A DNA stretch of 64,000 bases. Source: Verrucomicrobiota bacterium. Its GTDB lineage: Bacteria; Auribacterota; JABMQX01; JAFGEW01. Position 1 is the first letter of the stretch. Every line of letters begins with the position of its first letter. The stretch is taken from positions 1 through 64,000 of the forward strand of contig JAFGEW010000072.1 of the NCBI GenBank assembly GCA_016931415.1. The letters run 5' to 3'. Positions 1 through 15,799 of this stretch are shown piece by piece. The notes beneath the pieces are model-generated. The model saw nothing but the letters and a program-made list of their open reading frames with translations. It was not told where the DNA came from and did no database searches. The position numbers were made by a program, and so were the translations under genes.

Positions 1-344
1 CGGTTGATGATGTCGGCCGCCTTGCGCGCGCCGAGTGCTTCCTCGAGCACCTTTTTGGCAAACCCCATGCCGCCCGCAGCCGTCGTCCCGCTCTTGTACG
101 CGCCGGCGAGCGCCTCCTCGAGCACGGTCTCTTGAGATGCCGGTGCGACGCTGCGGATCTCGGCCAGCGAGCCGATGATCTTCTCGACCTCGCTGTCCTC
201 GAGATGGCGGAACACCTTCGCCGCTTTCGATGTGCCCAACACAACGAGAAGAATGGCCGCCTTCTGCTTGCCTGTGAGCAAGCGAGCGCGCTCCGCGGAA
301 GCCTCCTCGGCGTTCTCTTCGTTGCCGCGGCGTTTCTCTGCCAT
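1..344 (-). CDS. fliG: Flagellar motor switch protein FliG, N-terminal part (runs off the window)
   Basis: Rotor protein of the C ring; its N-terminal domain docks on the cytoplasmic tail of FliF and fixes the switch complex to the MS ring. Only about the first 114 codons are present. After a charged leader of about 20 residues the translation reads LTGKQKAAILLVVLG and then KVFRHLEDSEVEKII, typical of the FliG N-terminal domain. The ATG at 344 is preferred because a GAGGGG run lies ten bases before it; an in-frame ATG at 353 sits directly against that run. The gene follows fliF after 52 bases, the usual order. Torque and switching regions are outside the window. Confidence 0.9.
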   Translation of the reverse strand, partial: MAEKRRGNEENAEEASAERARLLTGKQKAAILLVVLGTSKAAKVFRHLEDSEVEKIIGSLAEIRSVAPASQETVLEEALAGAYKSGTTAAGGMGFAKKVLEEALGARKAADIIN

Positions 345-396
345 GGGTGCCATTCCCCTCTGTCGTTACCGGCCCCGCGCTGAGCGGTACCCCTGC

Positions 397-2013
397 CTAG
401 CTAATCCATTCGCGGATGACTGCGGCAATGCTCTCCGGCTTCTGATCGGCGAGATGCGCCATCGCCTCGCGCATGCCCCGAAGCTCCGCCTCGCTCTCTT
501 CGAGCACGATCTCGGTGAAAATCTCCTGGACACGCTTGTCGGACGCGACCGCATCTGGAAGCGGCCTCTCGCTGTGGCTCCCGCTCGACGGAGCAACGCC
601 AACCACTCTCGTCGGGCCGCTCTCGGTCCGGGGCTCGGCGAACGACGTCTTCTTCATGAACACCCACAGGAATCCGAGGAGCGCGATCGATACGATCGCT
701 GCCGGACCGTGCTTGGCAACACCGGTGACGATCGGATTGGGCATCGAAGCAACCTGCGCCGTGTCCGTCGCGGCCGGCACGAATGACGCCTCGTGCACGC
801 TGACTTGGTCGCCGCGCACTTGGCTATAGGCAATGACGCTCTTGACTAGATCCTCGACGTCCTTCACGCCCAAAGTGGTCGCGTTCTCAGCCCCCTCGCC
901 ACGGTCCTTGTTGATCACAACCGAGGCGCTCACGCGCTTGATGGTGCCCGCGGGGCTGACCGTCGTTGTCTTCGTGCGATTCGGCTCAGTCTCGATCAGT
1001 GTCGTTGATTCCTTCTCGGTCGAGCGATCCCCCGTTTCGGAGCTGATCGTGCTGCTACCGATATTCGACCCGGTGCCCGCCTCGCCACCCGGGTACGCCT
1101 TTGACCTGTCCGTCGAACGCTCGGTAAGCTGTTCCTTGGTTGTCGGGCCGGTCGTCGCCACAACCTTCTCGGTCTGCTGGCTCTCGCTGTTGAGTTCCAC
1201 GGTGAACGCCGCGCTCCAGTTGCCGGGCCCGCAGGCTGGATCGAGTTGCGCGCGCACTTTGGAGAGATAGTCCTTCTCGATGCTGCGCGCCAAGGCCACC
1301 TGGCCCTCGGTCATGTCGGCCATCGAGCCCTCTTGCGTGGGCTTGGCGAGCACATTGCCGTCGCCGTCGAGGATCGTGATGTTGTTCACCTTGAGCCCCT
1401 CGACGGCACTCGAGCACAGGTACTTGATTCCGCTGATCTCCCCCGCTCCGAGCTGCGTCCCCGGCCTCAGGCCAAGCACAACGGAGGCCGTCGCCGGCTT
1501 CTCGTCCAGCTTGAACAGAGGCTTGGGCGGGATCACTAGGTGGACGCGCGCGCTTTGCACGCTGGAGAGAGACGAGATCGTGCGCGCCAACTCGCCCTGG
1601 AGCGCCCGCAATCTTTTGATGTCCAGCATTGACTGGGAATCGCCTCCGAGCCCACCCTTGTCGAAGAGATCGCCCCAGCCCGTGCCGCCGGCATTAGCCG
1701 GCAGCCCGGCACTAGCCATCGTGAGCCGCAGATCGTCGACGCGACCCGACGGCACGTAGATCGCCCGGCCGCCGTCACGGACCTGGAACGTGACGTTCTC
1801 GTCGCGGAGCTTGTCGGCGATTGCCGAGGCGTCTTCGGGATCGAGCGCGCTCGGATAGAGCCGTGTCATCGATGGGCGGCTCGAGAGTTTGGCGAACATC
1901 CACAGCCCGAGCAGCGCCATGACAGCAACAAGCACAATCGAGATACGCTGGTTGAGACTGATGCGCTTCCAGATCGCAGCGAACTGCTTGCCGATCGCGT
2001 TGAGCTTATCCAT
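397..2013 (-). CDS. fliF: Flagellar MS-ring protein FliF
   Basis: Forms the MS ring in the inner membrane, the base on which the export gate, rod and C ring are built. The 538 residues fit the family. One membrane segment lies near residues 22-41 (ISIVLVAVMALLGLWMF) and a second near 436-453 (AAIVSIALLGFLWVFMKK), bracketing the periplasmic ring-building domains, where LDIKRLRALQGELARTI and SARVHLVIPPKPLF are recognisable. A Ser/Thr/Glu-rich stretch near residues 280-350 is the usual variable loop. The acidic C-terminal tail (about 500-538) is the expected FliG-binding segment. It lies between fliE and fliG in one operon. Confidence 0.95.
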   Translation of the reverse strand: MDKLNAIGKQFAAIWKRISLNQRISIVLVAVMALLGLWMFAKLSSRPSMTRLYPSALDPEDASAIADKLRDENVTFQVRDGGRAIYVPSGRVDDLRLTMASAGLPANAGGTGWGDLFDKGGLGGDSQSMLDIKRLRALQGELARTISSLSSVQSARVHLVIPPKPLFKLDEKPATASVVLGLRPGTQLGAGEISGIKYLCSSAVEGLKVNNITILDGDGNVLAKPTQEGSMADMTEGQVALARSIEKDYLSKVRAQLDPACGPGNWSAAFTVELNSESQQTEKVVATTGPTTKEQLTERSTDRSKAYPGGEAGTGSNIGSSTISSETGDRSTEKESTTLIETEPNRTKTTTVSPAGTIKRVSASVVINKDRGEGAENATTLGVKDVEDLVKSVIAYSQVRGDQVSVHEASFVPAATDTAQVASMPNPIVTGVAKHGPAAIVSIALLGFLWVFMKKTSFAEPRTESGPTRVVGVAPSSGSHSERPLPDAVASDKRVQEIFTEIVLEESEAELRGMREAMAHLADQKPESIAAVIREWIS

Positions 2014-2034
2014 CCGTGGCGTCTCCCGCGCGGC

Positions 2035-2334
2035 CTACACTTGCATCTTCATGACTTCGTCATACGCCTTGAGCAGCTTGCCGCGGATCTTCATCATGAG
2101 CTGGAAGGCAACGTCGGCCTCTTCGGCGGCGATCATGACCTTGTGTACGTCGGTGATCTCGCCGGCGGCGAACTGTTTGATCGTCTCGTCCATGTTGAGC
2201 TGGAGGTCGTTGACCTTCTCGAGGAAGCCGCCGAGCACGTTCTGGAACGAGCCCTCTTTCGGCTGCTCGATCTGGCCCAAGCGCGACGGGTCAAGCGGCG
2301 GCAGGTGCTGCCCGATCTTCGTAATGTCGGCCAT
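2035..2334 (-). CDS. fliE: Flagellar hook-basal body protein FliE
   Basis: Small rod adaptor joining the MS ring and export gate to the proximal rod; exported through the flagellar type III system. It has 99 residues, normal for the family. The conserved second half is visible: FQNVLGGFLEKVNDLQLNMD, then the ITDVHKVMIAAEEADVAFQL helix and a terminal KLLKAYDEVMKMQV. It lies 25 bases after flgC and 21 bases before fliF, so it is surely cotranscribed with them. Confidence 0.93.
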   Translation of the reverse strand: MADITKIGQHLPPLDPSRLGQIEQPKEGSFQNVLGGFLEKVNDLQLNMDETIKQFAAGEITDVHKVMIAAEEADVAFQLMMKIRGKLLKAYDEVMKMQV

Positions 2335-2359
2335 GGTGCTGTCCCCCTACTCCTCGCTC

Positions 2360-2791
2360 CTAGATCTCGAGCGCCTTGAGAATCATCTGCTTCGCAGCGC
2401 TGATCGCCATGACGTTCGCCTCGTAGCCGCGCGTGGCCGTCATCATGTTGAGCATCTCGTCGATCATGTTGACGTTCGGCATCTCGACGTACCCGTTCTC
2501 GTCGGCATCCGGGTGGCCCGGATTGTGGACCATGTGAACCGCGTCTCTCGCCGGCACGATGTCGGCGACGCGCACGCCCGCGCCCAGGTCGCCCATGAGA
2601 CCGTCGAGCCGGAGCGTGGCGTTGGCCAGCGCCTCCTCGAACACGACGACCTTGCGCTTGTAGGCACCGCCTTCCGGGGTGCGGGTCACCTCGCGGTTGG
2701 CGATGTTTTCGGCGATCACGTTCATGCGCAGCCGCTCGGCCGTCATGCCCGAGGCACTGATGTCGAACGAGCTGAAACTGCCGTTGCCCAT
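2360..2791 (-). CDS. flgC: Flagellar proximal rod protein FlgC
   Basis: Structural subunit of the proximal rod, assembled in the periplasm after type III export. The 143 residues match FlgC. The N-terminus FSSFDISASGMTAERLRMNV carries the rod/hook signature, followed by IAENIANREVTRTPEGGAYK. The C-terminal helix EMLNMMTATRGYEANVMAIS is the partner coiled-coil segment of rod proteins. It begins two bases after flgB, which suggests translational coupling. Confidence 0.95.
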   Translation of the reverse strand: MGNGSFSSFDISASGMTAERLRMNVIAENIANREVTRTPEGGAYKRKVVVFEEALANATLRLDGLMGDLGAGVRVADIVPARDAVHMVHNPGHPDADENGYVEMPNVNMIDEMLNMMTATRGYEANVMAISAAKQMILKALEI

Positions 2792-2793
2792 CG

Positions 2794-3159
2794 TTACGCG
2801 TCCTTGAGGATTTGGTCGATCTGGCGGAACTTCCGCGCGAGCAGTTGCGCGTAGACCTGGTACATGATTGCGTTCTCGGCGAGCGAGGTCATTTCCTTCT
2901 CCACGCTCACGTTGTTGCCGTCATTGCGGAAGGCCGTCTCGTTCGGCTGCGTGAGGCGCAATTTGAGGTCCTCGACGCCCGCGATTCCTTTGTCCTGGAG
3001 CACGCGGCTGAGCTCGTCGGCGAATTCGACGTCGCTGCGCTGGAAGCCCGGTGTATTCACGTTGGCGATGTTGTTGGCGAGCACCTTGTGGCGAAGCGCC
3101 GTGAAATCCAACATCCGCTCGTAGAGAGCAATCGCTTCCGGCTTGATGAGCTTGTCCAC
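2794..3159 (-). CDS. flgB: Flagellar proximal rod protein FlgB
   Basis: Proximal rod subunit and first gene of the basal-body operon. The start is set at a GTG at 3159 (VDKLIKPEAIALYERML) because AGAGGAG lies eight bases upstream. This gives 121 residues, normal for FlgB; the longer open frame up to 3267 would run through the sigma-54 promoter and is not used. The motif RHKVLANNIANVNTPGFQRS is the rod-protein signature, and EMTSLAENAIMYQVYAQLL is the C-terminal helix. Transcription should start about 50 bases upstream from the -24/-12 element at 3220-3235. Confidence 0.93.
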   Translation of the reverse strand: MDKLIKPEAIALYERMLDFTALRHKVLANNIANVNTPGFQRSDVEFADELSRVLQDKGIAGVEDLKLRLTQPNETAFRNDGNNVSVEKEMTSLAENAIMYQVYAQLLARKFRQIDQILKDA

Positions 3160-3219
3160 CCGTCTGGCTCCTCTGAACAGCTCGGTCGTGCAGCTTCTGC
3201 CGCCAGGCAACACCAATTG

Positions 3220-3235
3220 AGCAACTTCTATGCCA
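3220..3235 (-). promoter_or_regulatory. Sigma-54 (-24/-12) promoter of the flgB operon
   Basis: On the minus strand the sequence is TGGCATAGAAGTTGCT, against the sigma-54 consensus TGGCACGNNNNTTGCW. The invariant GG and GC are ten bases apart. It lies 61 bases before the flgB start and just after the stop of the NtrC-type regulator gene, so the basal-body genes can be switched on separately from the regulator. Its right half, AGAAGTTGCTC, is identical to that of the promoter at 12162-12177. Confidence 0.85.
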
Positions 3236-3243
3236 CGGGATTT

Positions 3244-3256
3244 TTCACTCGGTGAA
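3244..3256. promoter_or_regulatory. Inverted repeat beside the flgB promoter, possible activator site
   Basis: TTCAC-TCG-GTGAA, five-base arms around a three-base centre, about ten bases upstream of the -24 element. Its form resembles the longer palindrome TTCAG-TGA-CTGAA at 12296-12308 near another sigma-54 promoter. A binding role is inference. It is closer than usual for an NtrC-type enhancer. Confidence 0.3.
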
Positions 3257-3279
3257 CGAACCGCCACTCACGTGCCGGC

Positions 3280-4674
3280 TCACACCAACGCGCCGGCGCC
3301 CCTCGGGGCGGCGAACACCCCCTCGGCCCGGTACTGGTTGAGCTTGTTGCGCAACGTGCGCACGCTGATCTGGAGCACTTCAGCCGTCCGCCCGCGGTTA
3401 CCGCCCAGCGCCTGGAGCGTCTTGAGAATCAGGCGACGCTCCATCTCGGCTACCGTGTGGCCAACGGCATCGACGATCTCGTCCGTGTCGTCGCCCTCTT
3501 GCCCGACGGGGCGCAGGGTGAGGTGTTCGGCGCGAATCTCATCGTCGGCGTCGAGCACGATGGCGCGCTCGATGACGTTCTGCAGCTCGCGCACGTTGCC
3601 CGGCCAGGAGTAGGCCGACATCGCCTCGATCGCATCGCGGGCGATCGTCTTCGGCGGCCGGTTGTTCTCGCGGCTGTAGCGCTCGACGAAATGCTGGGCG
3701 AGCATCAACACGTCACCGTCGCGCTCGCGCAGCGGCGGCAGCGTGATCGGGATGACGTTGAGCCGGAAGAACAGGTCCTCGCGGAAGCGCTTCGCCTCGA
3801 TCTCTTCATCCAGGTTGCGGTTTGTCGTCGTCACGATCCGCACGTCGACCTTGATCGGCCGTGTTCCTCCGACGCGCTCGAACTCCCGCTCCTGGAGCAC
3901 GCGGAGCAGCTTAGCCTGGAGTCCCAGAGGAATCTCGCTGATCTCGTCGAGGAGCAACGTGCCGCGGTGGGCCAGCTCGAACCGGCCCGGCCGCCGCATC
4001 ACGGCGCCCGTAAACGCTCCCTTCTCATGGCCGAACAGCTCGCTCTCGAGCAGGCTCTCGGGGAGCGCGGCGCAGTTGACCTTGATGAACGGCGCGTTGG
4101 CCCGTGCGCTGTTGTAGTGGATCGCGCGCGCCACGAGTTCCTTGCCTGTCCCGCTTTCGCCCTGCACGAGCACAGTGGCCCGGCTGTTCGCCACCTTGCG
4201 GATGACCTCGAAGACCCCGTGCATCACGGCCGCCTTGCCGATGATCTCGCCGAAACCGTGCTCCTTGAGGATCTCGCCTCGCAGATACGTGTTCTCCTCG
4301 ATGAGGCTCTGGCGCTCGGCAGCCCGCTTGATGACCATCTCGATCTGGTCGGGCGAGAAGGGCTTGATAATGTAGTCGAAGGCGCCGACCTTCATCGCCT
4401 CCACCGCGCTTTCGACGGTTGCGTACGCCGTCATCATGACGACCACCGACTCGGGCGTGCACTCCCGCACGGCGCGGAGCAGCTCCATGCCGCTCAGATG
4501 CGGCATCCTGATGTCGGTGAACACCAAGTCAAAGGTCTCCGCCTTGACCTTCTTGAGCGCCTCTGCTCCGTCGGCCGCGCTCTGGACCTCAAAGCCCATC
4601 CGGGTCAGCGTCTCGACGAGAAACTTGCGGATCAACGGCTCATCGTCAACCACAAGCACGTTCTGCAACGCCAT
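3280..4674 (-). CDS. Sigma-54-dependent response regulator of the NtrC/FlgR type
   Basis: Activator that, when phosphorylated, uses ATP to open sigma-54 promoters. Order in 464 residues: receiver domain (about 5-118; [19 protein letters not shown], phospho-Asp in [14 protein letters not shown], Lys in YIIKPF); AAA+ domain (about 140-375) with Walker A GESGTGKE, the sigma-54 contact loop GAFTGA intact, Walker B-like [10 protein letters not shown] and R-finger region; and a C-terminal Fis-type helix-turn-helix ([20 protein letters not shown]). It sits between a PAS kinase and the flgB promoter, the arrangement expected for a FlgS/FlgR-like pair driving rod and hook genes. The cognate kinase is probably the gene directly upstream. 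Confidence 0.92.
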
Positions 4675-4721
4675 TTTTCGCCTCTCTTCTTATCGCGTGG
4701 TCAGCAGTTACTCGTTCGTAT

Positions 4722-6020
4722 TCAGGCCGCGCGTGGGCGCCGCGGCAGGGTCACAGTGAATGCCGCGCCTTCATTGGGCGCGGTCTCCACCTCTATGGTT
4801 CCGCCATGCGCCTCGACAACCTTACGCACGATGCTCAGGCCGAGGCCCGTGCCGGTCTGCTTGGTCGTGAAGAACGGCGAGAACAGCCGCCGTTTCGTTT
4901 CATCGCTCATGCCACAGCCGGTGTCGCGCACACAGAACGCGATGCCCTCGCCACCGCGTGCGCTGATCGACACCTCGACACGACCCTCGGCCCCGAGCGC
5001 CTGCCAGGCGTTGCGCACCAGGTTGAGCACGACGCCGTAGATCTGTTCAGGATCCACTCTGACCGTCGTCTTTTCGGAGTAGTCCCGGACGACGCTTACA
5101 CGCGGATGTGCCGCGCACATCTCCTGCTCGACGACGGCGAGCGCGGCATCCACGACCTCCTTCAAGCACGTGCAGCGAAGCTGCAGCTCGACCGGCCGGG
5201 TGAAGTCGAGCAGGCCGGTGACGATCCGGTTGAGCGAGCGCGCGCCCTGCACGATGTGGCTCGCCATCTCGCGCTGGGCTGGGGCATCAGCGAGGTCGCG
5301 CTCGAGTAGCGCGGCGAATCCTTCGATCCCGCCGAGCGGGTTGCGAATCTCGTGCGCCACGGTCGCGGCCATCTCGCCCAACGCCGCGAGGCGGTCGGCG
5401 CACCGGATCCGCTCCTCGAGTCGCTTGACCTCTGTCAAGTCGTGGAAGATCTCGAGCGCACCCGTCATCGCGCCGTCCGCGTCGCGCAACGGCGAGCTGC
5501 TTACCCCGACGGGCAGCGCGCGCCCGTCGCGGCGCTCGAGCGTCCGCTCCTTGAACACGTGCGGCGCATCGGTTTCGAGCGAGAGCAAGATGGCTGCGCA
5601 GCCCTCGTCGCGCTCGGGGAACACGTCCGTGTAGTCCCGGCCCAGCACGTCGGCGCGCCGGAATCCCGTCATCTGCTCGGCGGCGGCGTTGAAGGTCATA
5701 ATCCGGCCATGCGTATCAACGGCGATCACGCCGCTGCCCATGCTCTCGAGCACATCATTGAGGTAGGCGCGCGTCGCATCGAGTTCCTCGATCTTGCGCC
5801 GGAGCGTGTGATTCTTCTCTTCGAGCTCGCGGTTGACGGCGCTGACGTGCCGCTTGAGTTTGCTGTAGGAGGTCTGGAGCTTCGCCGCCTTCTGCGTGAA
5901 TCGCTCGAACGCCTCCGCCAGCTCCTCGATGTCGCCGGTCGCGTGCGAGTCATGCGCCGCACGCGCTGACGCACGAACAATGTCCTCGGCGGTCTCCGCG
6001 GACACAACGATGCTCTCCAT
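4722..6020 (-). CDS. PAS-domain sensor histidine kinase, likely partner of the adjacent regulator
   Basis: Soluble kinase with no membrane segment, so it should sense a cytoplasmic cue. In about 432 residues: a helical, coiled-coil-prone N-terminus; a PAS domain near 90-210 (GSGVIAVDTHGRIMTFNAAA); an H-box with phospho-acceptor His (AATVAHEIRNPLGGIEGF); N-box NLVRNAWQAL; G1 DTGCGM; and G2 GTGLGLSIVRKV. All kinase boxes are intact. The ATG at 6020 is chosen because GGAGG lies five bases upstream; a GTG at 6053 is a weaker alternative. It precedes the NtrC-type regulator by 47 bases. FlgS-type kinases sense completion of the flagellar export apparatus; that role here is inferred from position. 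Confidence 0.88.
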   Translation of the reverse strand: MESIVVSAETAEDIVRASARAAHDSHATGDIEELAEAFERFTQKAAKLQTSYSKLKRHVSAVNRELEEKNHTLRRKIEELDATRAYLNDVLESMGSGVIAVDTHGRIMTFNAAAEQMTGFRRADVLGRDYTDVFPERDEGCAAILLSLETDAPHVFKERTLERRDGRALPVGVSSSPLRDADGAMTGALEIFHDLTEVKRLEERIRCADRLAALGEMAATVAHEIRNPLGGIEGFAALLERDLADAPAQREMASHIVQGARSLNRIVTGLLDFTRPVELQLRCTCLKEVVDAALAVVEQEMCAAHPRVSVVRDYSEKTTVRVDPEQIYGVVLNLVRNAWQALGAEGRVEVSISARGGEGIAFCVRDTGCGMSDETKRRLFSPFFTTKQTGTGLGLSIVRKVVEAHGGTIEVETAPNEGAAFTVTLPRRPRAA

Positions 6021-6071
6021 GATCGCCTCCGCCTCACGCCAGCGCCGTTGCACCTGGCGCGAGCGTGTCGT

Positions 6072-6518
6072 CTACGTATTCGGCCCGGTCTTGCCGTAGG
6101 CCTTCTCGGCCGAGGCGGCGCTCAGCCTCCGGTTGGCTCCCTCGGCGCCGCTCGAATGCACGAGCCGCGACAGGATCCGCTGGTTCTCCTCGTCCACGTC
6201 GAGGATCCGCCCGAGCAGCGATCCGAGCGTGTCGAGCAACGGCGAGATCTCCTCGCCGTCGCCGCGTTGCTGCGCCTCGGCCTTGATGCGGGCCACCTCG
6301 AGCTTCCAGCGCACCTTGAGCGGCCCGATGCGCATTGACAAGTCGTTGATGTCGCGCATTACCTTGAGCTTCGTCGCCGCGAGAGTTGCCAGCTCTGTCG
6401 AGTAGGATTCTTCAGCGAGGATCTCGTGCTCGCGCGTCGTCAGATCGAGCAGTTGCTCGTAGTGCTCGATCTCCTCTTGGATCCCGTCGCGGAGCCTCTT
6501 GAGCAGTGCGTGTTCCAT
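6072..6518 (-). CDS. flgN: FlgN-like flagellar export chaperone
   Basis: FlgN family proteins bind the hook-filament junction proteins FlgK and FlgL before export. This 148-residue, almost entirely helical protein has the family pattern: an amphipathic start (LLKRLRDGIQEEIEHYEQLL), then REHEILAEESYSTELATLAATK and a second long helix. The start is secure: AAGGAGGT lies nine bases before the ATG. It lies between a TPR gene and the PAS kinase in the regulatory operon. FlgN sequences are weakly conserved, so the name rests on size, helix pattern and context. Confidence 0.65.
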   Translation of the reverse strand: MEHALLKRLRDGIQEEIEHYEQLLDLTTREHEILAEESYSTELATLAATKLKVMRDINDLSMRIGPLKVRWKLEVARIKAEAQQRGDGEEISPLLDTLGSLLGRILDVDEENQRILSRLVHSSGAEGANRRLSAASAEKAYGKTGPNT

Positions 6519-6542
6519 TGCTCGCGTACCTCCTTGAGCGTC

Positions 6543-8423
6543 TTACTTCGATGCGTCCTTGATCTGCTTCATCATGGCAATCGCACTTGCCTTGGCCACG
6601 GCGCGGTCGGCCCACAGTGTGCCGCGGAAGCGCCTCTGCACCTCGTCGTAGAGCGCTTCGGCGCGCTCGGGGTTGTTGAGCCGCTCGTAGGCGCGCCCCA
6701 TGCGGTAGAGCACCTGCGCCTCGTCGACGAACGCGGCCTTCTTCTCGAGAAGGCGCTGCGCCCAGTTCAGCTCGTCCTGACAGAGGCCGTGGTTGCTGAA
6801 CGAATCGAGCAATTGGATTGCGGCCCGGGACCTGACGGCGAGTTGCGCCGGGGTATCATCCTCGCGCCCGCCGTCGATGATGCGCATGTACTGGCGCCGC
6901 GCGTCGTCGAGCCATCCCTTCTTGACGTAGCAGGCGGCCAATGCAGCGACCCCCTCGAGTGCGAGCGCGTGCTCGGGCGCGCGCTGCAACGCCATGTCGT
7001 AGGCCTCGAGGGCTTCGTTGTAGTAGCCGGCGCTGTAGTAGCTTTGGGCGATCCAGTAGGCGACGAGGTCGCGGTCAGCCGACGTGAGGTCCCCTGCCGC
7101 CGCGCCATAGAGCTCCTCGAGCGCCATCGCCCACTCGCCGTCGAGTAACAGGACCTCGCCTGCGAGCATTTTCGATCGCGACACCTCCTGCGGCGTCGGT
7201 GCCGGATCGCGGGCCGCCGGGACGCGGCGCAGCATGTCGAGCGCCTCCGTATAGAGCGCCAGGCGCTTGTACGCATCCGCAGCACGAAACAACGCCGGGA
7301 TGCGCTGCTCGTAACTCGGGAAGTCCGCGAGTGCGACGGAGTAGTACTTGAGCGCGTGCGCCATTGCCCCGTCAGCGTAGTACGAGTCGGCGAGCATGAA
7401 CGCGGCAGCGGGACGGTAGACGTTCAGCTCGTAGCCGTAGACAATGCCGCGGAGCGAGGCGCGCGCGCGCGCCGTCTCGCCGCCGGCCAGATACAGCCGC
7501 GCCAACGCGAACTGCCGCGTGTCGCGTTCCGCTTGCGACCGCGCTTCCCGGAGCAGCTCCTCGTAGATGCGCGCCGCCCTGTCCATATGACCCAGCGCAA
7601 GCTCGACCGACGCGAGCCCCTCGCGCGCGCACAACTCGTGCGCGCTGCCATGCACCGTGAGGCGAATAACATGCTCAAAGGCCTGAGCCGCCGCGTCCCA
7701 CTCACCGAGCACCTTGTGCGCCCGGCCCGCAAGCAGGTACGCGTTGACCTGGAGTGGACTGTCCAGGTAGCTGTCGATGAGTAGGTAAGCCTCATCTCGC
7801 GCCGCGATGCAATCGCCTGCATCGAAGAGCACACGGGCCCGCTCGAGGCGGGCGTCGTCGGCAGTGTCGGCCTCCGGGAATCGCTCCAGGAGCATCTCGT
7901 ATTCGCGCAGCGCGGCGCGCCATTCGCCGCGGCGCGCATAGATCGCCGCGATGCGCATGTGGGCCGACGGCACGAACGACGAGTCCGGGAATCGCACGAT
8001 GCCTTCGCGGTAGCTGCGGATGCTCCGGTCCTCGAGGTAGGTGCGCCGCGCGTTCATACCCATGGTCGCGGGGATAGCGGGCCAGACCGACCCCTGCTCC
8101 AACATCTCGTCCAGGAACTCGCCCAGCGTGTTCGTTCTGTCTTCGGGCACACCGGCCTCGCGTTCGTCCTCGGTGCCTTCCGCGGTCATAACCACTGAAG
8201 GGACTGCCGGTTCGACGAGCTCGTCGGCGGGCGGCATGAGCTCGCGCGCGCTGCGCGGCCCGCTCGATCGCGGCAGCAGCGGCCCCTCGCCGCTCAGCAC
8301 CATGTCGTCGTCGAGGCTGACGTCGGCGAGACTCGGGCAGACGAGCACGCTTGTGAGCATGAACGCGAACAGCCCGAGGCACACACGTCGTCGACAGCCA
8401 ATCTGGAGGATCAGACGGTTCAC
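6543..8423 (-). CDS. Secreted tetratricopeptide-repeat protein
   Basis: 626 residues with an N-terminal signal peptide (about 1-33; LGLFAFMLTSVLVCPSLAD) and then mostly TPR-type helical hairpins. Typical repeats include IAAIYARRGEWRAALREYEM, DTRQFALARLYLAGGETARA, IAQSYYSAGYYNEALEAYDM and RMGRAYERLNNPERAEALYD. No catalytic motif is seen. It should act in the periplasm as a scaffold. It starts within the stop codon of the preceding TPR gene (ATGA overlap), so the two are translationally coupled and may form a complex. Motility-associated TPR proteins exist in several phyla, but I cannot assign a named family. Confidence 0.8.
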   Translation of the reverse strand: MNRLILQIGCRRRVCLGLFAFMLTSVLVCPSLADVSLDDDMVLSGEGPLLPRSSGPRSARELMPPADELVEPAVPSVVMTAEGTEDEREAGVPEDRTNTLGEFLDEMLEQGSVWPAIPATMGMNARRTYLEDRSIRSYREGIVRFPDSSFVPSAHMRIAAIYARRGEWRAALREYEMLLERFPEADTADDARLERARVLFDAGDCIAARDEAYLLIDSYLDSPLQVNAYLLAGRAHKVLGEWDAAAQAFEHVIRLTVHGSAHELCAREGLASVELALGHMDRAARIYEELLREARSQAERDTRQFALARLYLAGGETARARASLRGIVYGYELNVYRPAAAFMLADSYYADGAMAHALKYYSVALADFPSYEQRIPALFRAADAYKRLALYTEALDMLRRVPAARDPAPTPQEVSRSKMLAGEVLLLDGEWAMALEELYGAAAGDLTSADRDLVAYWIAQSYYSAGYYNEALEAYDMALQRAPEHALALEGVAALAACYVKKGWLDDARRQYMRIIDGGREDDTPAQLAVRSRAAIQLLDSFSNHGLCQDELNWAQRLLEKKAAFVDEAQVLYRMGRAYERLNNPERAEALYDEVQRRFRGTLWADRAVAKASAIAMMKQIKDASK

Positions 8424-9757
8424 GGCTCACGCTCCAACGACTGCGCTTGCCTGTCGAACGACTCGGCGAAGAGGAAGAAGGCGTGCTCGCCGACGGGCTC
8501 ACCGCGATGCGCGTCGGCGAGCTCGGCCAGCGTCTGGCGCGCGCGTTGATACTCGCCGGCGGCCATCAGGCTGGCCGCCAGATCCAGCCGCGCCTGCGTC
8601 CGCAGCGGGCTGTCGGGGTGCTCGCGATCGATCTGCTCGAAGTGCTCGATCGCCGTTTCGTTCGAACCAAGGTCAGCGAAACAGCGCCCGGTCTTGTAGA
8701 GCAACTCGTCAACGGGAAGCGCGGCGGCGTCGGCCCGCCCTTCGATGACTTCTCTCAGCACCGCCGAGTAGTGGCGAATGGCACCGTTCAGGTAGTGCGG
8801 CTCAGTCGCACCGAGCTTGGCGTACACCTCCGCAAGCCGCGCGTGAGCAAACGTACGCTTCATCCCGAGCGGCGTCGTGCTCACAACGTTCTCGAGCATC
8901 TCGAGGCCGTCCGCCAGGTTGCCGGTCTTGACAAGCTCCGAGCCATGTTCCCAGTTGCGCATGGCTGGCGGCGTGCCGACGCCGCCGCCAAGCCGAACCT
9001 GAGTCAGCGCCGCAGCCAACCCGACCGCCAGCACCGGCACAAGCACGTACAGCAGGCGGCGACGCCGACGCTGCTGCGTCTCGATCTGCGCTTCGGCCGC
9101 CGCGAGGGGAACCGGCTCGACCGACGTCCCAACCTCCGTCCCAACAACTGCCTCGTCCCCGGCCTCAGTCACGCCGCCCTGGGTCTCGGAACCCGCGCGG
9201 CCATGGGCGCGCGCCGCGTTGACGCGCTCGGCCTCGCTAGGCTCAACCGGCGTCTCGTTGGAGGCAACGCCCTGCGGGGACGGTACCTCGACCGTATCCG
9301 CTAACTCCTTGGGTGCGGCCGCGAGTTTCCTCGCCTCGGCCGGCCGTCTCTCTTCGGGAGCGCGGTCAACAGGCCCCTGTGGCTCCACGGATGTGACCAT
9401 GGCCTCTGCCGCGCGATTGGCACCGTCAGAAGCTGTAGTCTTCTCCGCCGCCCCCTTGTCGGATGCGGCTTCCGGGCCTGGCACTCCGGAGGGCTGTTCA
9501 GTATCAGCGACCGTGTTATCGGAGTCCGCGGGAAGGGCGTCGGCAATCTCAACGCGCTCCGTCGGGTCTTCTGCCGCCAGCGTGGACGCCGCGTCCTCGG
9601 GGCCCGCCGCCGCGTCCTCGGGGCCCGCCGCCGCGTCGATCGCCTGGAGCAGGTCGTCGAGCTCCGACGAGCTCTCCGCAGACTCTGGCGCTTGCCCGGC
9701 GGGGGCGCCGGATGCCTTGGGGCCAGGGATCGGACTCTTCTTGGACTCGTCAGTCAT
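8420..9757 (-). CDS. Single-pass membrane protein with long acidic cytoplasmic region and periplasmic TPR region
   Basis: About 445 residues. Residues 1-230 are low-complexity, rich in Ala, Glu, Pro and Ser, and probably unstructured. An arginine patch (QQRRRRRLL) is followed by one membrane segment near 236-256 (YVLVPVLAVGLAAALTQV). The C-terminal part has TPR-like helices (FAHARLAEVYAKLGA, ELLYKTGRCFADLGSNETAIEHF, ARLDLAASLMAAGEYQRARQTL). The start is the ATG at 9757, which overlaps the end of the STAS gene by eight bases; the open frame continues to 9952 but lies inside that gene. The layout suggests a link between cytoplasmic signalling and the periplasm, but its function is unknown. Confidence 0.75.
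   Translation of the reverse strand: MTDESKKSPIPGPKASGAPAGQAPESAESSSELDDLLQAIDAAAGPEDAAAGPEDAASTLAAEDPTERVEIADALPADSDNTVADTEQPSGVPGPEAASDKGAAEKTTASDGANRAAEAMVTSVEPQGPVDRAPEERRPAEARKLAAAPKELADTVEVPSPQGVASNETPVEPSEAERVNAARAHGRAGSETQGGVTEAGDEAVVGTEVGTSVEPVPLAAAEAQIETQQRRRRRLLYVLVPVLAVGLAAALTQVRLGGGVGTPPAMRNWEHGSELVKTGNLADGLEMLENVVSTTPLGMKRTFAHARLAEVYAKLGATEPHYLNGAIRHYSAVLREVIEGRADAAALPVDELLYKTGRCFADLGSNETAIEHFEQIDREHPDSPLRTQARLDLAASLMAAGEYQRARQTLAELADAHRGEPVGEHAFFLFAESFDRQAQSLEREP
9588..9629. repeat. Two tandem 21-base units in a TPR gene
   Basis: Two perfect head-to-tail copies (9588-9608 and 9609-9629) followed by a partial third, encoding AAAGPED-type repeats in the unstructured cytoplasmic part of the membrane TPR protein. 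The repeat keeps the frame, so it probably varies in copy number without breaking the gene. Confidence 0.85.
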
Positions 9758-10139
9758 CGGCAAGCGATTTCCACAACAGCGTGCGTTCGACCTCGCCGAC
9801 GCAATCGGCGAAGGCGTTGCGCGCGCTCTCGACATCTTCGTAGAACTCGAACAGCGCATCGAGCTCGCCGAGCTCGAACACGCGCCGCACCTCGGGGCGA
9901 CGCACGACGAGTTTGATGTCGCCGCCTCGGCGACGGGCCTGCTTGACCGCATCCGCTACGACGCCGAGACCCGCACCCGACACGTATGTGGCGTTCCGAA
10001 GATCGTAGACAATGCGCCGTCTGCCCGCACCGATCAGCTCGTGCAGGTGGTCGGTCGACTCGGCTGATTCGAACACCAGATTATCGGCCGCCGTGACCAC
10101 GGCGGGTCTCTCGTCGGCGTCCTTGCGGGCCGTTTTCAT
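9750..10139 (-). CDS. STAS-domain protein (anti-sigma-factor antagonist type)
   Basis: 129 residues forming a single STAS domain, as in RsbV and SpoIIAA, which bind RsbW-type kinases in a phosphorylation-dependent partner switch. The core reads RIVYDLRNATYVSGAGLGVVADAV. The family phospho-site motif, usually DSSGL, here reads SGAGL, so the usual serine is missing and regulation by phosphorylation is doubtful. The start ATG at 10139 overlaps the end of the RsbW-like gene (ATGA), the usual coupling of switch partners. It lies in the operon with flagellar regulators, so a motility role is likely but not shown. Confidence 0.8.
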   Translation of the reverse strand: MKTARKDADERPAVVTAADNLVFESAESTDHLHELIGAGRRRIVYDLRNATYVSGAGLGVVADAVKQARRRGGDIKLVVRRPEVRRVFELGELDALFEFYEDVESARNAFADCVGEVERTLLWKSLADD

Positions 10140-11635
10140 GCGCTTCGCGGAACCTCCTCGTGCTCGGGCTTCGAGACATCGAAGTGTTTCTCGACGACAA
10201 CGTTCGTCCCGCGCCCAAGGCGCGACACGATCTCGAACCGATCGGCAGACCCGTGCATGAGCCGCAGCCCGCGCCCCGAGCGCCGCAGCGGGTCGCGCGT
10301 TTTCTCCGTCTCCCGGTTGTAGGCCTCGCTCACGTCGAAGCCGATGCCACGATCGCGCACGCTCGCTCGCACGTGATCCTCTTCGCGCGACAGGGTGAGG
10401 TACACGGGTCCTTCCCGGCCCGGATAGGCCCATCGGATGCAGTTGAGCAGCGCCTCTTGCACAGCCGTAACGAGTCCGTGGGCAGCCTCGTCGCTGAGCG
10501 GGGTATCGAGAACGAACTGCTCCGTCGCCTCGCGCGCCCGAGCTAAGCCGGCGCGGTCCGCCGCCACGCGCACGTGCGCCATCCCATTTGTCACGACGAT
10601 CGCCTGCATTCGGAGAGCCACCATGACCGGCGTGCCGTCGGCGACGTTGTTGAGCATCGCGAGCGCGCGCCGGGCGGGTTTGGACTCGCCATCGACAAGC
10701 AATCGGTTCGTCTCAGCCAACACGTCCGCCCAGCGCTCGGCGCCGGCCTTGACAACGCGCGGCTCTGCCAGTAACAGCACGTCGCTGTCCGCGAGCTGCG
10801 CCTCGAACGTACGCACGCAGCCGCTGTGACCCTCGACGAATATGTCATACCCCGCCTTCGCCGGCGCAAGACGCACGATGCCCGAGGCGCCCAGGGTCGC
10901 CCCCACCAACCGTCGCGCGGACCCGGTCTCGATCACGCCTCCGGTGAGCCCATGCACGCCGCACGCGCAGTCGAGGGCTTTGAGCTCGTCGGCGATTCGC
11001 GCCACGGCGGCTGCCGGTATAGCAAGATCAACTGCACCCGCGAGCGCCCGGATGAGCAACCGCGCGATCCCGGCGAACCGCGCACCCGCGTCCACATGCC
11101 CCCAGACAAACGCCGTCCGCGTGCGATCGAGCGCCCGGATATGCCATACGGCCGTCGCTTGCGGAGACGCCGGATCACCCACCACCTCGACGCTCACAGG
11201 CCCGACGCGACGTGTGCACTCGCGCAGCGCGTGCAGCGGCACGGCCGTCTCGGTCTTCCCTCTCGACGGCGCCCGGCGCTCGAGCGCCTGCTCGACGCTG
11301 CGGGTCAGCGCTTCGAGCACGACGGGCTTGTGCAGGAAATCCGCCACACCAAGCCGCAAGGCTTCCACCACAACGTCCATCGTGCCGTAGGCGCTCATGA
11401 GGATGACCGCCGGCGCCCGCGGCACGCCGCGAACGGCGCGAAGCAGCTCGAGCCCGCTCATGCCCGGCATCTTCAGGTCGGTGACAGCGACGTCGAACGG
11501 CCGCAAGCGCACAAGCTCGAGCGCCTCTTCAGCCGTCGAGGCGGTCGACGCGTCAAATCCCTGCGCGGCGAAATGGTCGGCGACCGCTTCGGCCAGCGTC
11601 GCCTCGTCGTCAACTATGAGGATGGACCTCTTCAT
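10136..11635 (-). CDS. Response regulator fused to a degenerate RsbU-like phosphatase domain and an RsbW-like kinase domain
   Basis: 499 residues in three parts. Residues 1-120 are a receiver (SILIVDDEATLAEAVADHF; phospho-Asp in DVAVTDLKMPGMSG; Lys in FLHKPV). Residues about 135-350 follow the layout of SpoIIE/RsbU PP2C phosphatases but without the metal-binding Asp residues: the GDVSG position reads GHVDAG, the TDG position AEP, and the final DDxT reads DGTP. Residues about 365-490 are an RsbW-type GHKL ATPase (ALLNCIRWAYPGREGPVYL, VRDRGIGFDVS, GRGLRLMHG). The start at 11635 follows a response-regulator N-terminus. It is coupled to the STAS gene. It probably binds a partner in response to phosphorylation; the target is unknown. 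Confidence 0.82.
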   Translation of the reverse strand: MKRSILIVDDEATLAEAVADHFAAQGFDASTASTAEEALELVRLRPFDVAVTDLKMPGMSGLELLRAVRGVPRAPAVILMSAYGTMDVVVEALRLGVADFLHKPVVLEALTRSVEQALERRAPSRGKTETAVPLHALRECTRRVGPVSVEVVGDPASPQATAVWHIRALDRTRTAFVWGHVDAGARFAGIARLLIRALAGAVDLAIPAAAVARIADELKALDCACGVHGLTGGVIETGSARRLVGATLGASGIVRLAPAKAGYDIFVEGHSGCVRTFEAQLADSDVLLLAEPRVVKAGAERWADVLAETNRLLVDGESKPARRALAMLNNVADGTPVMVALRMQAIVVTNGMAHVRVAADRAGLARAREATEQFVLDTPLSDEAAHGLVTAVQEALLNCIRWAYPGREGPVYLTLSREEDHVRASVRDRGIGFDVSEAYNRETEKTRDPLRRSGRGLRLMHGSADRFEIVSRLGRGTNVVVEKHFDVSKPEHEEVPRSA

Positions 11636-11681: not shown

Positions 11682-12122
11682 CTACCACGGCTCCATGCGC
11701 GAACCCGAGCGCCGCGCCGCCTTGATCTCCGCTTGAGCTTTCGCGAGTTGTTTCTCGAGCGCCGCGATCCGTTCGCGCAGCGCATCGTTGTCGTCGTGCT
11801 CTTGGGTCAGGGCCGACTGTGTTGCCGCAAGCTCTCGGCGCAGCCGCTCGTTCTCGGTCAGCAGCATGTTGATGCGCACAAGGTCCTTCTGGATCGCCGC
11901 GCGGTAAGCGGCTTCATCGAACTCGTCGCTCGTCTCGGTTGACGCCGGCACGGCGTAGTCAGCCCCATCCGTCGGGCCTTCGGCCAGATAGCCTGACTGG
12001 GGCACGAGGTCATAGGGCCGGACCTCGTCGCGCGACGGCCTCCGGCTCCCGAGCTCACAGCCGGCAGTGACGACGGTCAGCGCGGTCAGCACAACAACGA
12101 CGACAAGCCAACTCGTGCGCAT
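11682..12122 (-). CDS. Small coiled-coil lipoprotein
   Basis: 146 residues. The N-terminus MRTSWLVVVVVLTALTVVTAGC is a signal peptide with lipobox VTAGC, so Cys22 should be lipidated. A short linker is followed by a long heptad-rich coiled coil (about 70-140; RINMLLTENERLRRELAATQ, RERIAALEKQLAKAQAEIKA). The start is supported by AAGGAG six bases upstream and by a sigma-54 promoter 40 bases upstream. It is the first gene of the regulatory operon that runs to the NtrC-type regulator at 3280. No function can be named; an envelope anchor for the TPR proteins is one guess. Confidence 0.8.
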   Translation of the reverse strand: MRTSWLVVVVVLTALTVVTAGCELGSRRPSRDEVRPYDLVPQSGYLAEGPTDGADYAVPASTETSDEFDEAAYRAAIQKDLVRINMLLTENERLRRELAATQSALTQEHDDNDALRERIAALEKQLAKAQAEIKAARRSGSRMEPW

Positions 12123-12161
12123 AGTCCTCTCCTTAGCAGATGGCTTCACGCCGGGGGCTTG

Positions 12162-12177
12162 AGCAACTTCTGTACCA
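12162..12177 (-). promoter_or_regulatory. Sigma-54 promoter of the lipoprotein/partner-switch operon
   Basis: Minus strand TGGTACAGAAGTTGCT: invariant GG and GC ten bases apart, perfect TTGCT, and the same AGAAGTTGCTC right half as the flgB promoter. It lies 40 bases before the lipoprotein start codon. A perfect palindrome lies about 120 bases further upstream, at enhancer distance. Confidence 0.8.
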
Positions 12178-12293
12178 AGGAATGCCGGGGCAAGGAGAGC
12201 GCCTCGCCTGGCGAGGGCTTGGGTCCGAGGGGAGCGGGCGGACGCCCGAACGTGCGCATCCCTCGAGGGGGACACGGCCGCAACGCCGCCGAA

Positions 12294-12357: not shown

Positions 12358-13722
12358 TCACGCGCGCGCCAAGCCGTACTTGCGGATCTTGGTGTAAAGC
12401 GTCGTGCGATCGATGCCGAGCGTCTTGGCCGCCCGGTTCTTGTTCCAGCCGACCGCCTCGACGACACGGCGGATGTACTCCTTCTCCACGTCGTCGAGCG
12501 TCATGTCGGTCGACATCGGAACCGTTGGCTCAATGGTCTTGGCCACCTTGTGCGCCTCGGCAAACAGGAGGTGCTCTGGCAGCAGCACGTCTTCGGCTTC
12601 GAGCAGAATCGCCCGCTCAATCGTGTTGCGGAGCTCGCGCACGTTGCCCGGCCAGTGGTAGTCAACGATCATCTGCTCCGCCTCGGGCGAGATCTTGTAG
12701 ACGTTCTTCTTGAACTCCACATTGAACCGGTCGATGAAGTGCTTGGCCAGCAACAGTACGTCGCTGCCACGCTCGCGCAGCGGCGGCAGCGTGATCGGTA
12801 CGACGTGGAGCCGATAGTAGAGGTCCTCGCGGAACTTCCCGTCGGCCATCGCCGCCTGCAGGTCGCGGTTCGTCGAGGCGATGATGCGGATGTCGACGCT
12901 GACCTTCGACACCCCGCCCACGCGAGTGAACGATCGCTCCTGCAGGGCGCGCAGCAGCTTTGCCTGAAGGTTGTAGCTCATGTCGCCGATCTCGTCGAGA
13001 AACAGGGTCCCTTTGTCGGCCAGCTCGAACAGGCCTTTCTTCTGCTGCTTCGCGTCGGTGAACGCGCCCTTCTCGAACCCGAACAACTCGCTCTCCACGA
13101 GCGCCTCGGGCACCGCCGTGCAGTTGAAGTCGACAAACAGCTTGTCGCGCCGGAAGCTCCAGTAGTGGGTCGCGCGCGCCGCCAGCTCCTTCCCCGTGCC
13201 GCTCTCGCCCTGAATGAGCACCGTCGATGAGTTGCTCCGCGCCACGCGCTTGAGGTACTCGCACACCTTGCGCATCGCCGGGCTCTCGCCGACGATGAAG
13301 TCGGCCTCGAACTCAGCCTGCTCGCGTGCGCGCACGATCGACAGCTCCTTCTTGAGCGCAAGCGTCTCGAGCGCATTGCGAACGACGAGCTTGATCGCCT
13401 CGAGACTGAACGGCTTGTCCACGTAATCGTAGGCGCCGTGCTTCATACACTTGACCGCGTTCTCGATATCGGCGAATGCCGTCATGATGATCACGACGAT
13501 GTCATCCTGCACCTTGCGCGCTTGCTTGAGCACCTCGATGCCGCTTGCCTTCGGCAGGCGCATGTCGAGCAGCATAATGTCCGGCCGCTCCTGCCGCACG
13601 AGCTTGATGGCCTCTTCGCCCGAACCCGCCTCGCACGTTGTGTACCCTTCATCGCGGAGCGCCTCGGCCAGAGAAAGCCGGATACTCTCCTCGTCATCAA
13701 CGATCAGAACCGATGCATCCAT
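12358..13722 (-). CDS. Second sigma-54-dependent response regulator (NtrC family)
   Basis: 454 residues: receiver (about 4-115; [19 protein letters not shown], phospho-Asp in [14 protein letters not shown], Lys in YVDKPF), AAA+ domain (about 140-370; Walker [21 protein letters not shown]) and a Fis-type helix-turn-helix ending the protein ([20 protein letters not shown]). The sigma-54 contact loop reads GAFTDA rather than GAFTGA, a substitution known in a minority of these activators. It follows its kinase by three bases. It faces the lipoprotein operon promoter and the palindrome at 12294-12310, so it may control that operon. Confidence 0.9.
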
Positions 13723-13725
13723 GTC

Positions 13726-14472
13726 CTACCCAATCTCCGTGATCGCCCGTGACCCATGTTGCCCGTCGTGTACGGGACCGCGGTCCGCGTTGGGCGGATC
13801 GACAAGCCACCGCACCACCATCGCCAGGCCACCCTCGGCCCGGCGATGCGCCGTGATCGTTCCTCCGTGTTCCTCCATGCACTTGACGGCAACCGCCAAG
13901 CCCAACCCGTTGCCCTTGGTCTTTGTCGTGTAGCCCGGGGAGAAGAGCTCGCTCAGGTCCGCGACGGCCGCACCGACGCCCGTGTCCTCGACGTGCACCG
14001 AGACTTCGCGCTGTGCCGCGTCGTAGGCTGTTCGCATTGTCAGCGTGCCTCCGTTCGGCATCGCGTCAACGGCGTTCGCAATGAGATTGCGCAGCGCGCG
14101 CCCGACCATGTCGATGTCGCACACAAGCGGCGGCACAAGGTCGCCGTCGATCCGCACAACACCGATACCTCCGGCATCAAACCGGTCGCTGAAGAACGAC
14201 AACGCGGCGTCGAGAATGCTCCGCAGGTCGGCACGCACCATGCACGCCCGCCCGTCACGCGCGTAGTCAAGGAGGCTCTTGACGATCTCGTCGACTCGGT
14301 CGACCTCCTTGAGGATCATGTTCACGTACTTGCGTCGCGGGTCGCCTCCATCGAGCTTGCCCCCAAGCAGCTGCGTCGCTGCGCTGATCCCGGCCAGCGG
14401 GTTCCGGATCTCGTGCGCGAGCATCGACGAGAGCCGCCCCAGAACGAGCAGCCGTTCCTGCTTCTTCGTCAT
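13726..14472 (-). CDS. Minimal soluble histidine kinase
   Basis: 248 residues consisting of little more than a kinase core. The H-box (LGRLSSMLAHEIRNPLAGIS) starts within the first 20 residues, so there is no sensory domain. N-box (NLIANAVDAM), G1 (VEDTGVGA) and G2 (GNGLGLAVAVKCM) are intact. GGGGAG about nine bases before the ATG supports the start. It probably takes its input from a partner protein. It is cotranscribed with the regulator at 12358 (three-base gap). Confidence 0.88.
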   Translation of the reverse strand: MTKKQERLLVLGRLSSMLAHEIRNPLAGISAATQLLGGKLDGGDPRRKYVNMILKEVDRVDEIVKSLLDYARDGRACMVRADLRSILDAALSFFSDRFDAGGIGVVRIDGDLVPPLVCDIDMVGRALRNLIANAVDAMPNGGTLTMRTAYDAAQREVSVHVEDTGVGAAVADLSELFSPGYTTKTKGNGLGLAVAVKCMEEHGGTITAHRRAEGGLAMVVRWLVDPPNADRGPVHDGQHGSRAITEIG

Positions 14473-14623: not shown

Positions 14624-15799
14624 TCAATCACACGCGTTCCCCGCCTGCACCCGCCGGGCCCGATCGTACGCGCCGTCCAGCGCGTCGACGATCTCGTCAA
14701 CGACAGCCTCCGTCAGCAACGGATGGAGCGGAAGCGTCAGCTCGCGGGCGCCGATGGCCTCGGTCTTCGGAAGCATCCCCTTGGCAAAACCATAACGCTC
14801 CCGATAGTACTGGAACTGGTGCACGGGCGTGTAGTGCACGCTCGTCTGAATCCCCTGCGCATGCAACGCCTCAACGCATGCGGCCCGGTCCACGTCCTCG
14901 TCGACCAGTACTGGAAGAATGTGGTGCACGGGCTCGCCGCGAGCGTGCGCGAACGGCATCGTTGCCCCCTTGAATCCGTCGAGACGCCTCCGGTAGTGCG
15001 CCGTGAGCACCGCCCGCCGCGCGTTGTTGCGTCTGAGCTTGCCAAGCTGTACGAGCCCGAGCGCCGCGCGGATCTCGTCCAGCCGGTAGTTATAGCCCAG
15101 CCCCACCACGTCGTAGAGCGGATGGGTGCCGCAGTGGCGCTGGAAGCAGCCGCTCGACATCCCGTGGCAGCGCGCGCGCCGCGCGAACTCGGCGATCGCG
15201 TCGTCATGCGTCACGAGCATCCCGCCTTCCCCTACGGCGAGGTTCTTGTTCGTGTAGAAGCTGAAGCAGCCCGCCACGCCGAACGCGCCCAGCGCGCGGC
15301 CGTCGAGTCGCGCCAGCGGCGCGTGCGCGCAGTCCTCAATCACCGGGATATCGTGGCGCGACGCCACGTCCTCGATTGCCGCCATGTCGCACGGGTAACC
15401 GCCGTAGTGCATCACGATGATCGCCGCGGTTTTGCCGGTCATCTTCCGGGCGATGTCCGAGGGCGAAATGGTCCAATCGTCCTCGGATGTCAAGTCGGCG
15501 AATACGGGCGTCGCGCCGCAGTAGAGCACCGCGTTCGCCGTCGCCACAAACGTCAGAGACGGCACGATCACCTCGTCGCCCGGTCCGACGCCGACCGCCA
15601 GACATGCAAGGTGCAACGCGGCCGTGCCGCTCGATACGGCCACCGCGTGGCGCACGCCAAGCGCCCCGGCGAACGCCGCTTCAAACTGCTCGGTCACCGG
15701 TCCCATCGTGAGCCACTTGCGGTGGAGCACCTCGAGCACGGCGCGCGTCTCCGCGTCGTCAAAATCGATCTCCGCCAATGGCACGCGCCACGCCATCAC
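14624..15799 (-). CDS. DegT/DnrJ/EryC1-family sugar aminotransferase
   Basis: PLP enzyme that adds an amino group to a keto sugar nucleotide. The 391 residues fit the family. Visible: VPLAEIDFDD start, the AVAVSSGTAALHLACLAVG cofactor-phosphate region, VIEDCAHA, and the PLP-lysine segment CFSFYTNKNLAVGEGGMLVT. It is last in the sugar cluster and overlaps the nucleotidyltransferase by four bases. With a dehydratase in the same operon it likely makes a 4-amino-4,6-dideoxy sugar; C3 amination is the alternative. Sequence resemblance to LegC/PseC is general, not specific. Confidence 0.85.
   Translation of the reverse strand: MMAWRVPLAEIDFDDAETRAVLEVLHRKWLTMGPVTEQFEAAFAGALGVRHAVAVSSGTAALHLACLAVGVGPGDEVIVPSLTFVATANAVLYCGATPVFADLTSEDDWTISPSDIARKMTGKTAAIIVMHYGGYPCDMAAIEDVASRHDIPVIEDCAHAPLARLDGRALGAFGVAGCFSFYTNKNLAVGEGGMLVTHDDAIAEFARRARCHGMSSGCFQRHCGTHPLYDVVGLGYNYRLDEIRAALGLVQLGKLRRNNARRAVLTAHYRRRLDGFKGATMPFAHARGEPVHHILPVLVDEDVDRAACVEALHAQGIQTSVHYTPVHQFQYYRERYGFAKGMLPKTEAIGARELTLPLHPLLTEAVVDEIVDALDGAYDRARRVQAGNACD

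Follow-up and report, generated by a model that had tools for sequence, protein, structure and literature searches.

A PP2C-derived domain and a STAS protein lacking their signature residues in an HsbR/HsbA-like pair among flagellar genes

The partner switches work on a serine in the STAS protein, which is phosphorylated by GHKL kinases and dephosphorylated by PP2Cs. What may become of such a switch when the signature residues of the phosphatase and the serine of its substrate are both gone? A gene pair in the window, the whole stretch of 64,000 nucleotides analysed here, raises this question. A preliminary description from the sequence alone had proposed a receiver fused to a dead RsbU-like phosphatase and an RsbW-like kinase, possibly a phosphorylation-gated binding module rather than an enzyme pair.

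Gene pair and flagellar surroundings

The fusion gene is read on the minus strand from the start at 11635 to the stop codon at 10138–10136 and encodes 499 aa, so the coordinates first proposed, 10136–11635, are correct. Its codon-position GC contrast is coding-typical in every domain. The proposed receiver was borne out by Pfam (Table 1), and its D9, D10, D53, S81 and K103 are all kept in alignment columns that are invariant with the orthologues, with the codons checked.

The GHKL domain had been called intact-looking and the comparison agrees. Besides the Pfam match, it keeps R368, E394, N398, D428, G430, G432 and GRG, as aligned to the SpoIIAB structures with the codons checked. We take these positions to include those of SpoIIAB R20, E46 and N50. 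By this alignment, the catalytic and docking residues of SpoIIAB have kept counterparts in the window protein.

The STAS protein that had been placed next to the fusion, at 9750–10139, was found there over the Pfam cut-off. The two genes share 4 bp, ATGA, in which the STAS start codon runs into the stop codon of the fusion gene. The surrounding genes are flagellar, with FliF, FliE, rod proteins and FlgN, and include two NtrC-type regulators with histidine kinases. FlgB and FlgC were assigned from the gene order among the Flg_bb_rod matches, and the gene start at the window edge is presumably that of FliG, by recognition. Elsewhere, on contig C16, the same genome encodes a FliA/WhiG family sigma factor (TIGR02479, 253 bits) and a FlgM-like protein (PF04316), both over the cut-off. 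On the other side, a DegT-type aminotransferase gene (14624–15799) begins about 150 bases beyond the short histidine kinase gene.

Table 1. Features of the locus in window coordinates
Feature	Position	Strand	Basis or remark
FliG start (presumed), FliF, FliE, rod proteins (FlgC, FlgB), NtrC-type regulator, PAS histidine kinase	1..6053	(-)	
TPR, TPR, FlgN genes	6072..9769	(-)	within conserved flagellar gene order
STAS (anti-sigma antagonist) gene	9750..10139	(-)	129 aa; STAS over Pfam cut-off
Gly55 codon (GGT) for phosphoserine (SpoIIAA S58)	9975..9977	(-)	alignment to SpoIIAA, codons
RR-pseudoPP2C-GHKL gene	10136..11635	(-)	499 aa; HsbR/CrsR-like architecture
GHKL (SpoIIAB/RsbW-type) domain	10193..10564	(-)	residues 358-481; Pfam HATPase_c_2 E 5.8e-20
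PP2C/SpoIIE-derived pseudophosphatase domain (predicted)	10601..11245	(-)	about residues 131-345; global profile test, position equivalent in three orthologues, moderate-confidence model
Asp333-Gly334 at DD motif (SpoIIE D795)	10634..10639	(-)	GHKL-anchored alignment; codons
Glu291-Pro292 at TDG motif (SpoIIE D746)	10760..10765	(-)	alignment; C-terminal half weak
His180 for invariant Asp of GDV (SpoIIE D628 metal ligand)	11096..11098	(-)	profile alignment, codons
Ala162 for invariant Asp of GGD	11150..11152	(-)	profile alignment, codons
Receiver domain	11294..11623	(-)	residues 5-114; Pfam Response_reg E 2.4e-25
Coiled-coil gene	11682..12275	(-)	between NtrC-like gene and RR fusion; place of longer LysM coiled-coil in orthologous loci
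NtrC-type sigma-54 regulator	12358..13722	(-)	54% identical to L032 counterpart
Short histidine kinase (HisKA + HATPase)	13726..14472	(-)	candidate phosphate donor for receivers

Origin and lost residues of the middle domain

The middle domain had been said to retain the phosphatase fold. It has no Pfam match at E<=10, SpoIIE PF07228 included, hhalign against the active orthologues gives no match, and local HMMs built from PP2Cs of the phylum score it no better than shuffles. Used alone as a query, the domain retrieved no convincing relative. Nor does a frameshift conceal a normal PP2C, since none of the other reading frames gives a match.

A global test is fair here because homologous neighbours fix both ends of the domain and the length is similar. 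We aligned residues 131–345 with a profile of 48 SpoIIE-type PP2Cs, from which the window sequence was excluded. The score was reached by 0 of 1500 shuffles (z 6.0) and by 0 of 1500 unrelated non-PP2C fragments (z 4.4). Most of this comes from the N-terminal half (z 6.4); the C-terminal half contributes little (z 1.8, 32/600), and the pairwise global alignments with single orthologues are marginal (z 1.0–2.9). Thus the claim of a retained fold finds support in the global profile but not in Pfam, hhalign or the local HMMs, and by the global test the domain is PP2C-derived.

In the structural check that had been suggested, AlphaFold with four sequences produced a poor model in the middle domain. 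With a 34-row PP2C alignment, the model shows the PP2C order of helices and strands at moderate confidence (pLDDT 68.8, pTM 0.66), and its best PDB matches by Foldseek are RsbX, SpoIIE, the S. agalactiae PP2C and RssB. The 34-sequence alignment predisposes the model to the PP2C fold, so it is supportive but not independent.

That the domain has no PP2C fold, an unrelated domain or linker having taken its place, is a reading to which the three unsuccessful local methods and the poor four-sequence model lend themselves. Against it, the domain lies at the PP2C place of the orthologues with nearly equal length, the global score was reached by neither set of 1500, and the 34-sequence model has the helix and strand order of a PP2C. 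We consider this reading very improbable.

SpoIIE binds metal through the side chains of D628, D746 and D795 and the G629 carbonyl (PMC5468089), and we took the three Asp residues as those of the GDV, TDG and DD motifs. In the window, the GDV Asp is replaced by His180 in the profile alignment, so the GHV first noticed is solid. The GKG loop after His180 is deleted, the AGH motif position is Arg-Arg, and the GGD Asp, absent from the earlier list, is Ala162. The TDG motif reads AEP/PR. To read AEP at TDG, as proposed, is plausible, although the ungapped alignment puts Pro292 in the place of the Asp and a one-residue shift is needed to bring Glu291 there.

At the DD motif, the first Asp (D333) is kept and the second is lost to Gly334. 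One Asp of this motif may thus survive, and the statement that all Asp positions are changed holds for GDV and TDG but is slightly overstated for DGTP in place of DDVT. His180, Glu291 and Asp333 could in principle bind metal. Judged by these residues, the window phosphatase has very probably lost its activity. The same genome encodes three other SpoIIE-type phosphatases, which keep GGD, GDV, AGH, TDG and DD.

The STAS partner and the active orthologues

The substrate side has changed too, which the preliminary description did not notice. Where SpoIIAA reads FMDSSGLGV, the aligned STAS protein of the window reads YVSGAGLGV, and S58 becomes Gly55. The neighbouring Ser54, aligned to the Asp before SpoIIAA S58, is still there as a potential phosphorylation site. 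The Ser is kept in the STAS proteins of the three orthologous loci, within SSRGLG or TSRGLG. The phospho-Ser is kept also in 43 of the 43 other STAS domain copies aligned, which come from 33 reading frames, the phylum's best matches plus three others of the window's own genome.

Because the three other SpoIIE-type phosphatases and all 43 STAS copies are intact, the loss of the enzyme and substrate sites is, by sequence, specific to the window pair. The loss of the STAS serine is easier to square with a binding module than with an enzyme pair. It need not abolish binding, since a SpoIIAA chain reading DASGLG, with Ser changed to Ala, shares the PDB entry 1til with SpoIIAB.

Other arrangements of these domains occur in the same genome and phylum. 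A conventional RsbV-RsbW-like gene pair with the STAS Ser intact lies at C29:89874-90630. A receiver-GHKL fusion of 299 aa without PP2C (C16:40382-41281) is located near chemotaxis-like genes, with a separate STAS gene nearby at C16:34099, making a second unusual partner-switch part in this genome. In one genus of the phylum (g3), three STAS domains stand in tandem in proteins about 405 aa long, and every one of these domains carries the phospho-Ser motif, as FLSSAGIR or FISSAGIR.

The suggested search for the domain order in other genomes found the receiver-PP2C-GHKL fusion with its STAS gene in three genomes, all of one family in another class of the window's phylum. In R3-B46 (L032, the same locus as L005), the order of nine genes is the same as in the window: histidine kinase, NtrC-type regulator, coiled-coil, receiver-PP2C-GHKL, STAS, TPR, TPR, FlgN and PAS histidine kinase. 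The NtrC proteins are 54% and the PAS kinases 34% identical between the two. In the L010 and L025 genomes, the fusion gene likewise follows the coiled-coil gene and precedes the STAS gene.

These orthologues resemble the window in gene setting, domains and the paired STAS gene, but differ in that their PP2C motifs and STAS Ser are intact, and their PP2Cs match Pfam SpoIIE at E 8e-28 to 1e-34. The contrast with three active orthologues that share the gene setting supports the view that the window phosphatase is dead, while the receiver and GHKL domains flanking it are intact. Two flanking proteins differ in build from R3-B46. The window coiled-coil protein is without the LysM domain of its counterpart (5093-5953 in L032), and the window histidine kinase, 248 aa against 515 aa (1897-3444 in L032), misses the N-terminal sensor part.

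No further genome with the orthologous locus was found among the 44 searched in the phylum, which include the one other member of the window's class, at 81% completeness. The dead fusion/STAS pair is seen in one genome only, a draft of 134 contigs. Full-length protein searches of this genome and its relatives returned mainly receiver-domain matches, and one long match (L093) was rejected as a histidine kinase beside an NtrC gene. A profile of the active orthologues run against 384 genomes, a search biased towards active PP2Cs and unable to give a count of dead ones, found PP2C-GHKL fusions, with nearly all motifs intact in those opened and N-terminal parts not receiver-like by eye.

The window differs from its orthologues most in the PP2C domain, with identities of 18–23% there, 25–30% in STAS, 28–33% in GHKL and 38–42% in the receiver. 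Among the active orthologues, PP2C (51–64%) and GHKL (46–60%) are about equally conserved. The same active architecture is found in proteobacteria in HsbR and CrsR, so the active state is probably ancestral and the window state derived.

Known switches, the proposed binding without chemistry and its rivals

Among the closest known systems is HsbR-HsbA of P. aeruginosa, a receiver-PP2C-GHKL and STAS pair beside flagellar genes, which controls FliA through FlgM (PMC6482189, PMC5085249). HsbR dephosphorylates HsbA, and the unphosphorylated HsbA binds FlgM and frees FliA; HsbA S56A favours swimming (PMC6482189). The HsbR phosphatase and HsbA Ser56 are functional, whereas the window has lost both the PP2C active site and the STAS Ser. 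CrsR-CrsA of Shewanella oneidensis shares the three-domain order and the STAS partner (PMC6482189). CrsR, however, is described as controlling RpoS with both kinase and phosphatase activity, while no phosphatase activity is expected in the window.

Hence, of what marks the HsbR/CrsR type, the window has the N-terminal receiver with its phospho-acceptor Asp, the C-terminal GHKL kinase/anti-sigma domain with intact catalytic motifs and the adjacent STAS partner. It lacks the metal-binding Asp residues of the PP2C domain and, with Gly55, the phosphorylatable Ser of D/S-S-x-G-L-G. In the homologous SpoIIE/SpoIIAB/SpoIIAA and RsbU/RsbW/RsbV systems of Bacillus subtilis, the PP2C, GHKL and STAS domains form separate proteins that are catalytically active and run a functioning phospho-Ser cycle, unlike in the window.

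E. coli RssB is a receiver fused to an inactive PP2C and serves as a binding or adaptor module (PMC12143880, PMC5468089). The premise that phosphatase and kinase act only as separate proteins or active fusions overlooked this case, and apart from RssB we found no literature on inactive SpoIIE-type phosphatases in partner switches. Receiver phosphorylation, the linker and the switch helices of the pseudo-PP2C control RssB binding, with no phosphatase chemistry (PMC12143880, PMC5468089). By sequence, the window protein shows this layout too, a receiver followed by an inactive PP2C-derived domain; in RssB, phosphorylation of the receiver gates the binding (PMC12143880, PMC5468089).

A GHKL domain is absent from RssB, which hands RpoS over to ClpXP, whereas in the window GHKL follows the pseudo-PP2C, in place of the RssB-type ending. 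Moreover, the RssB PP2C is C-terminally truncated, while the window domain looks full length with substituted residues. The NCBIfam RssB models give the window protein 75.8 bits against a cut-off of 700, on the receiver part only.

By sequence, the signature residues are lost in the PP2C-derived domain and the phospho-Ser in STAS, while the active-site residues of receiver and GHKL are kept. We give about an even chance to a flagellar partner switch of the HsbR/HsbA kind that has degenerated, losing its Ser-phosphate cycle and keeping receiver-gated binding. The gene order of R3-B46, the three active pairs, the specific loss, the 4-bp overlap and the presence of FliA and FlgM speak for it. This reading takes the window gene for an HsbR/CrsR relative in a derived state, partnered with the STAS encoded just after it. 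The switch based on adding and removing phosphate probably now works through binding alone.

In such a switch, STAS would be permanently unphosphorylated and binding-competent. The switch would be set when the neighbouring histidine kinase, or a different one, phosphorylates receiver Asp53, and the signal would pass through the linker and the pseudo-PP2C switch helices so that GHKL holds STAS or another client. By analogy Gly55 is a permanent S56A-like state, which suggests a locked unphosphorylated STAS with its partner set by receiver phosphorylation. If it behaves as HsbA does, this STAS would capture FlgM and release the sigma factor FliA. The GHKL domain may instead bind a FliA- or sigma-B-like factor directly. 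The client would be FlgM, FliA or a different sigma factor. With no Ser substrate, the retention of the kinase residues lacks an explanation, unless it is ATP binding alone that counts or a different STAS protein serves as substrate.

The latter leads to a rival in which only the kinase/anti-sigma arm works: GHKL phosphorylates another STAS, an intact SpoIIE-type phosphatase reverses it and the local STAS is a competitor or decoy. The kept GHKL catalytic residues suit this, as do the three other Ser-bearing STAS proteins and three intact SpoIIE-type phosphatases of the genome. However, the overlap and the conserved gene order tie the local STAS gene to the fusion protein, and at least one of the other STAS proteins adjoins its own RsbW-like gene. 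We regard this arm-only arrangement as unlikely.

Decay is a real rival given the simplified operon: the switch is no longer needed, both genes drift, and the dead phosphatase and the missing serine are steps to loss with no present function. Compared with L032, the histidine kinase is shortened (248 vs 515 aa), the coiled-coil is without LysM, the PP2C is dead and the STAS Ser is lost, and the middle domain has diverged most (18–23% vs 28–33% for GHKL and 38–42% for the receiver). Yet the open reading frames are intact and the codon-position GC is coding-typical in every domain. The key receiver and GHKL residues, the overlapping gene junction and the gene order across classes are kept as well. 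On this balance, drift to loss seems improbable.

The degenerate flagellar switch can be put in a stronger form, which we offer tentatively. The whole Ser-phosphate cycle would be shed at both ends, and a nucleotide-dependent STAS/GHKL switch, gated by Asp phosphorylation only, would control the flagellar sigma activity. The paired loss in enzyme and substrate gives a clear, testable prediction. If true, partner switching would survive the loss of its defining serine phosphorylation, with a two-component receiver taking control. It would parallel the RssB-like route from phosphatase to pure adaptor with the kinase domain and the STAS partner still attached, an intermediate where the enzyme and binding roles would be separable.
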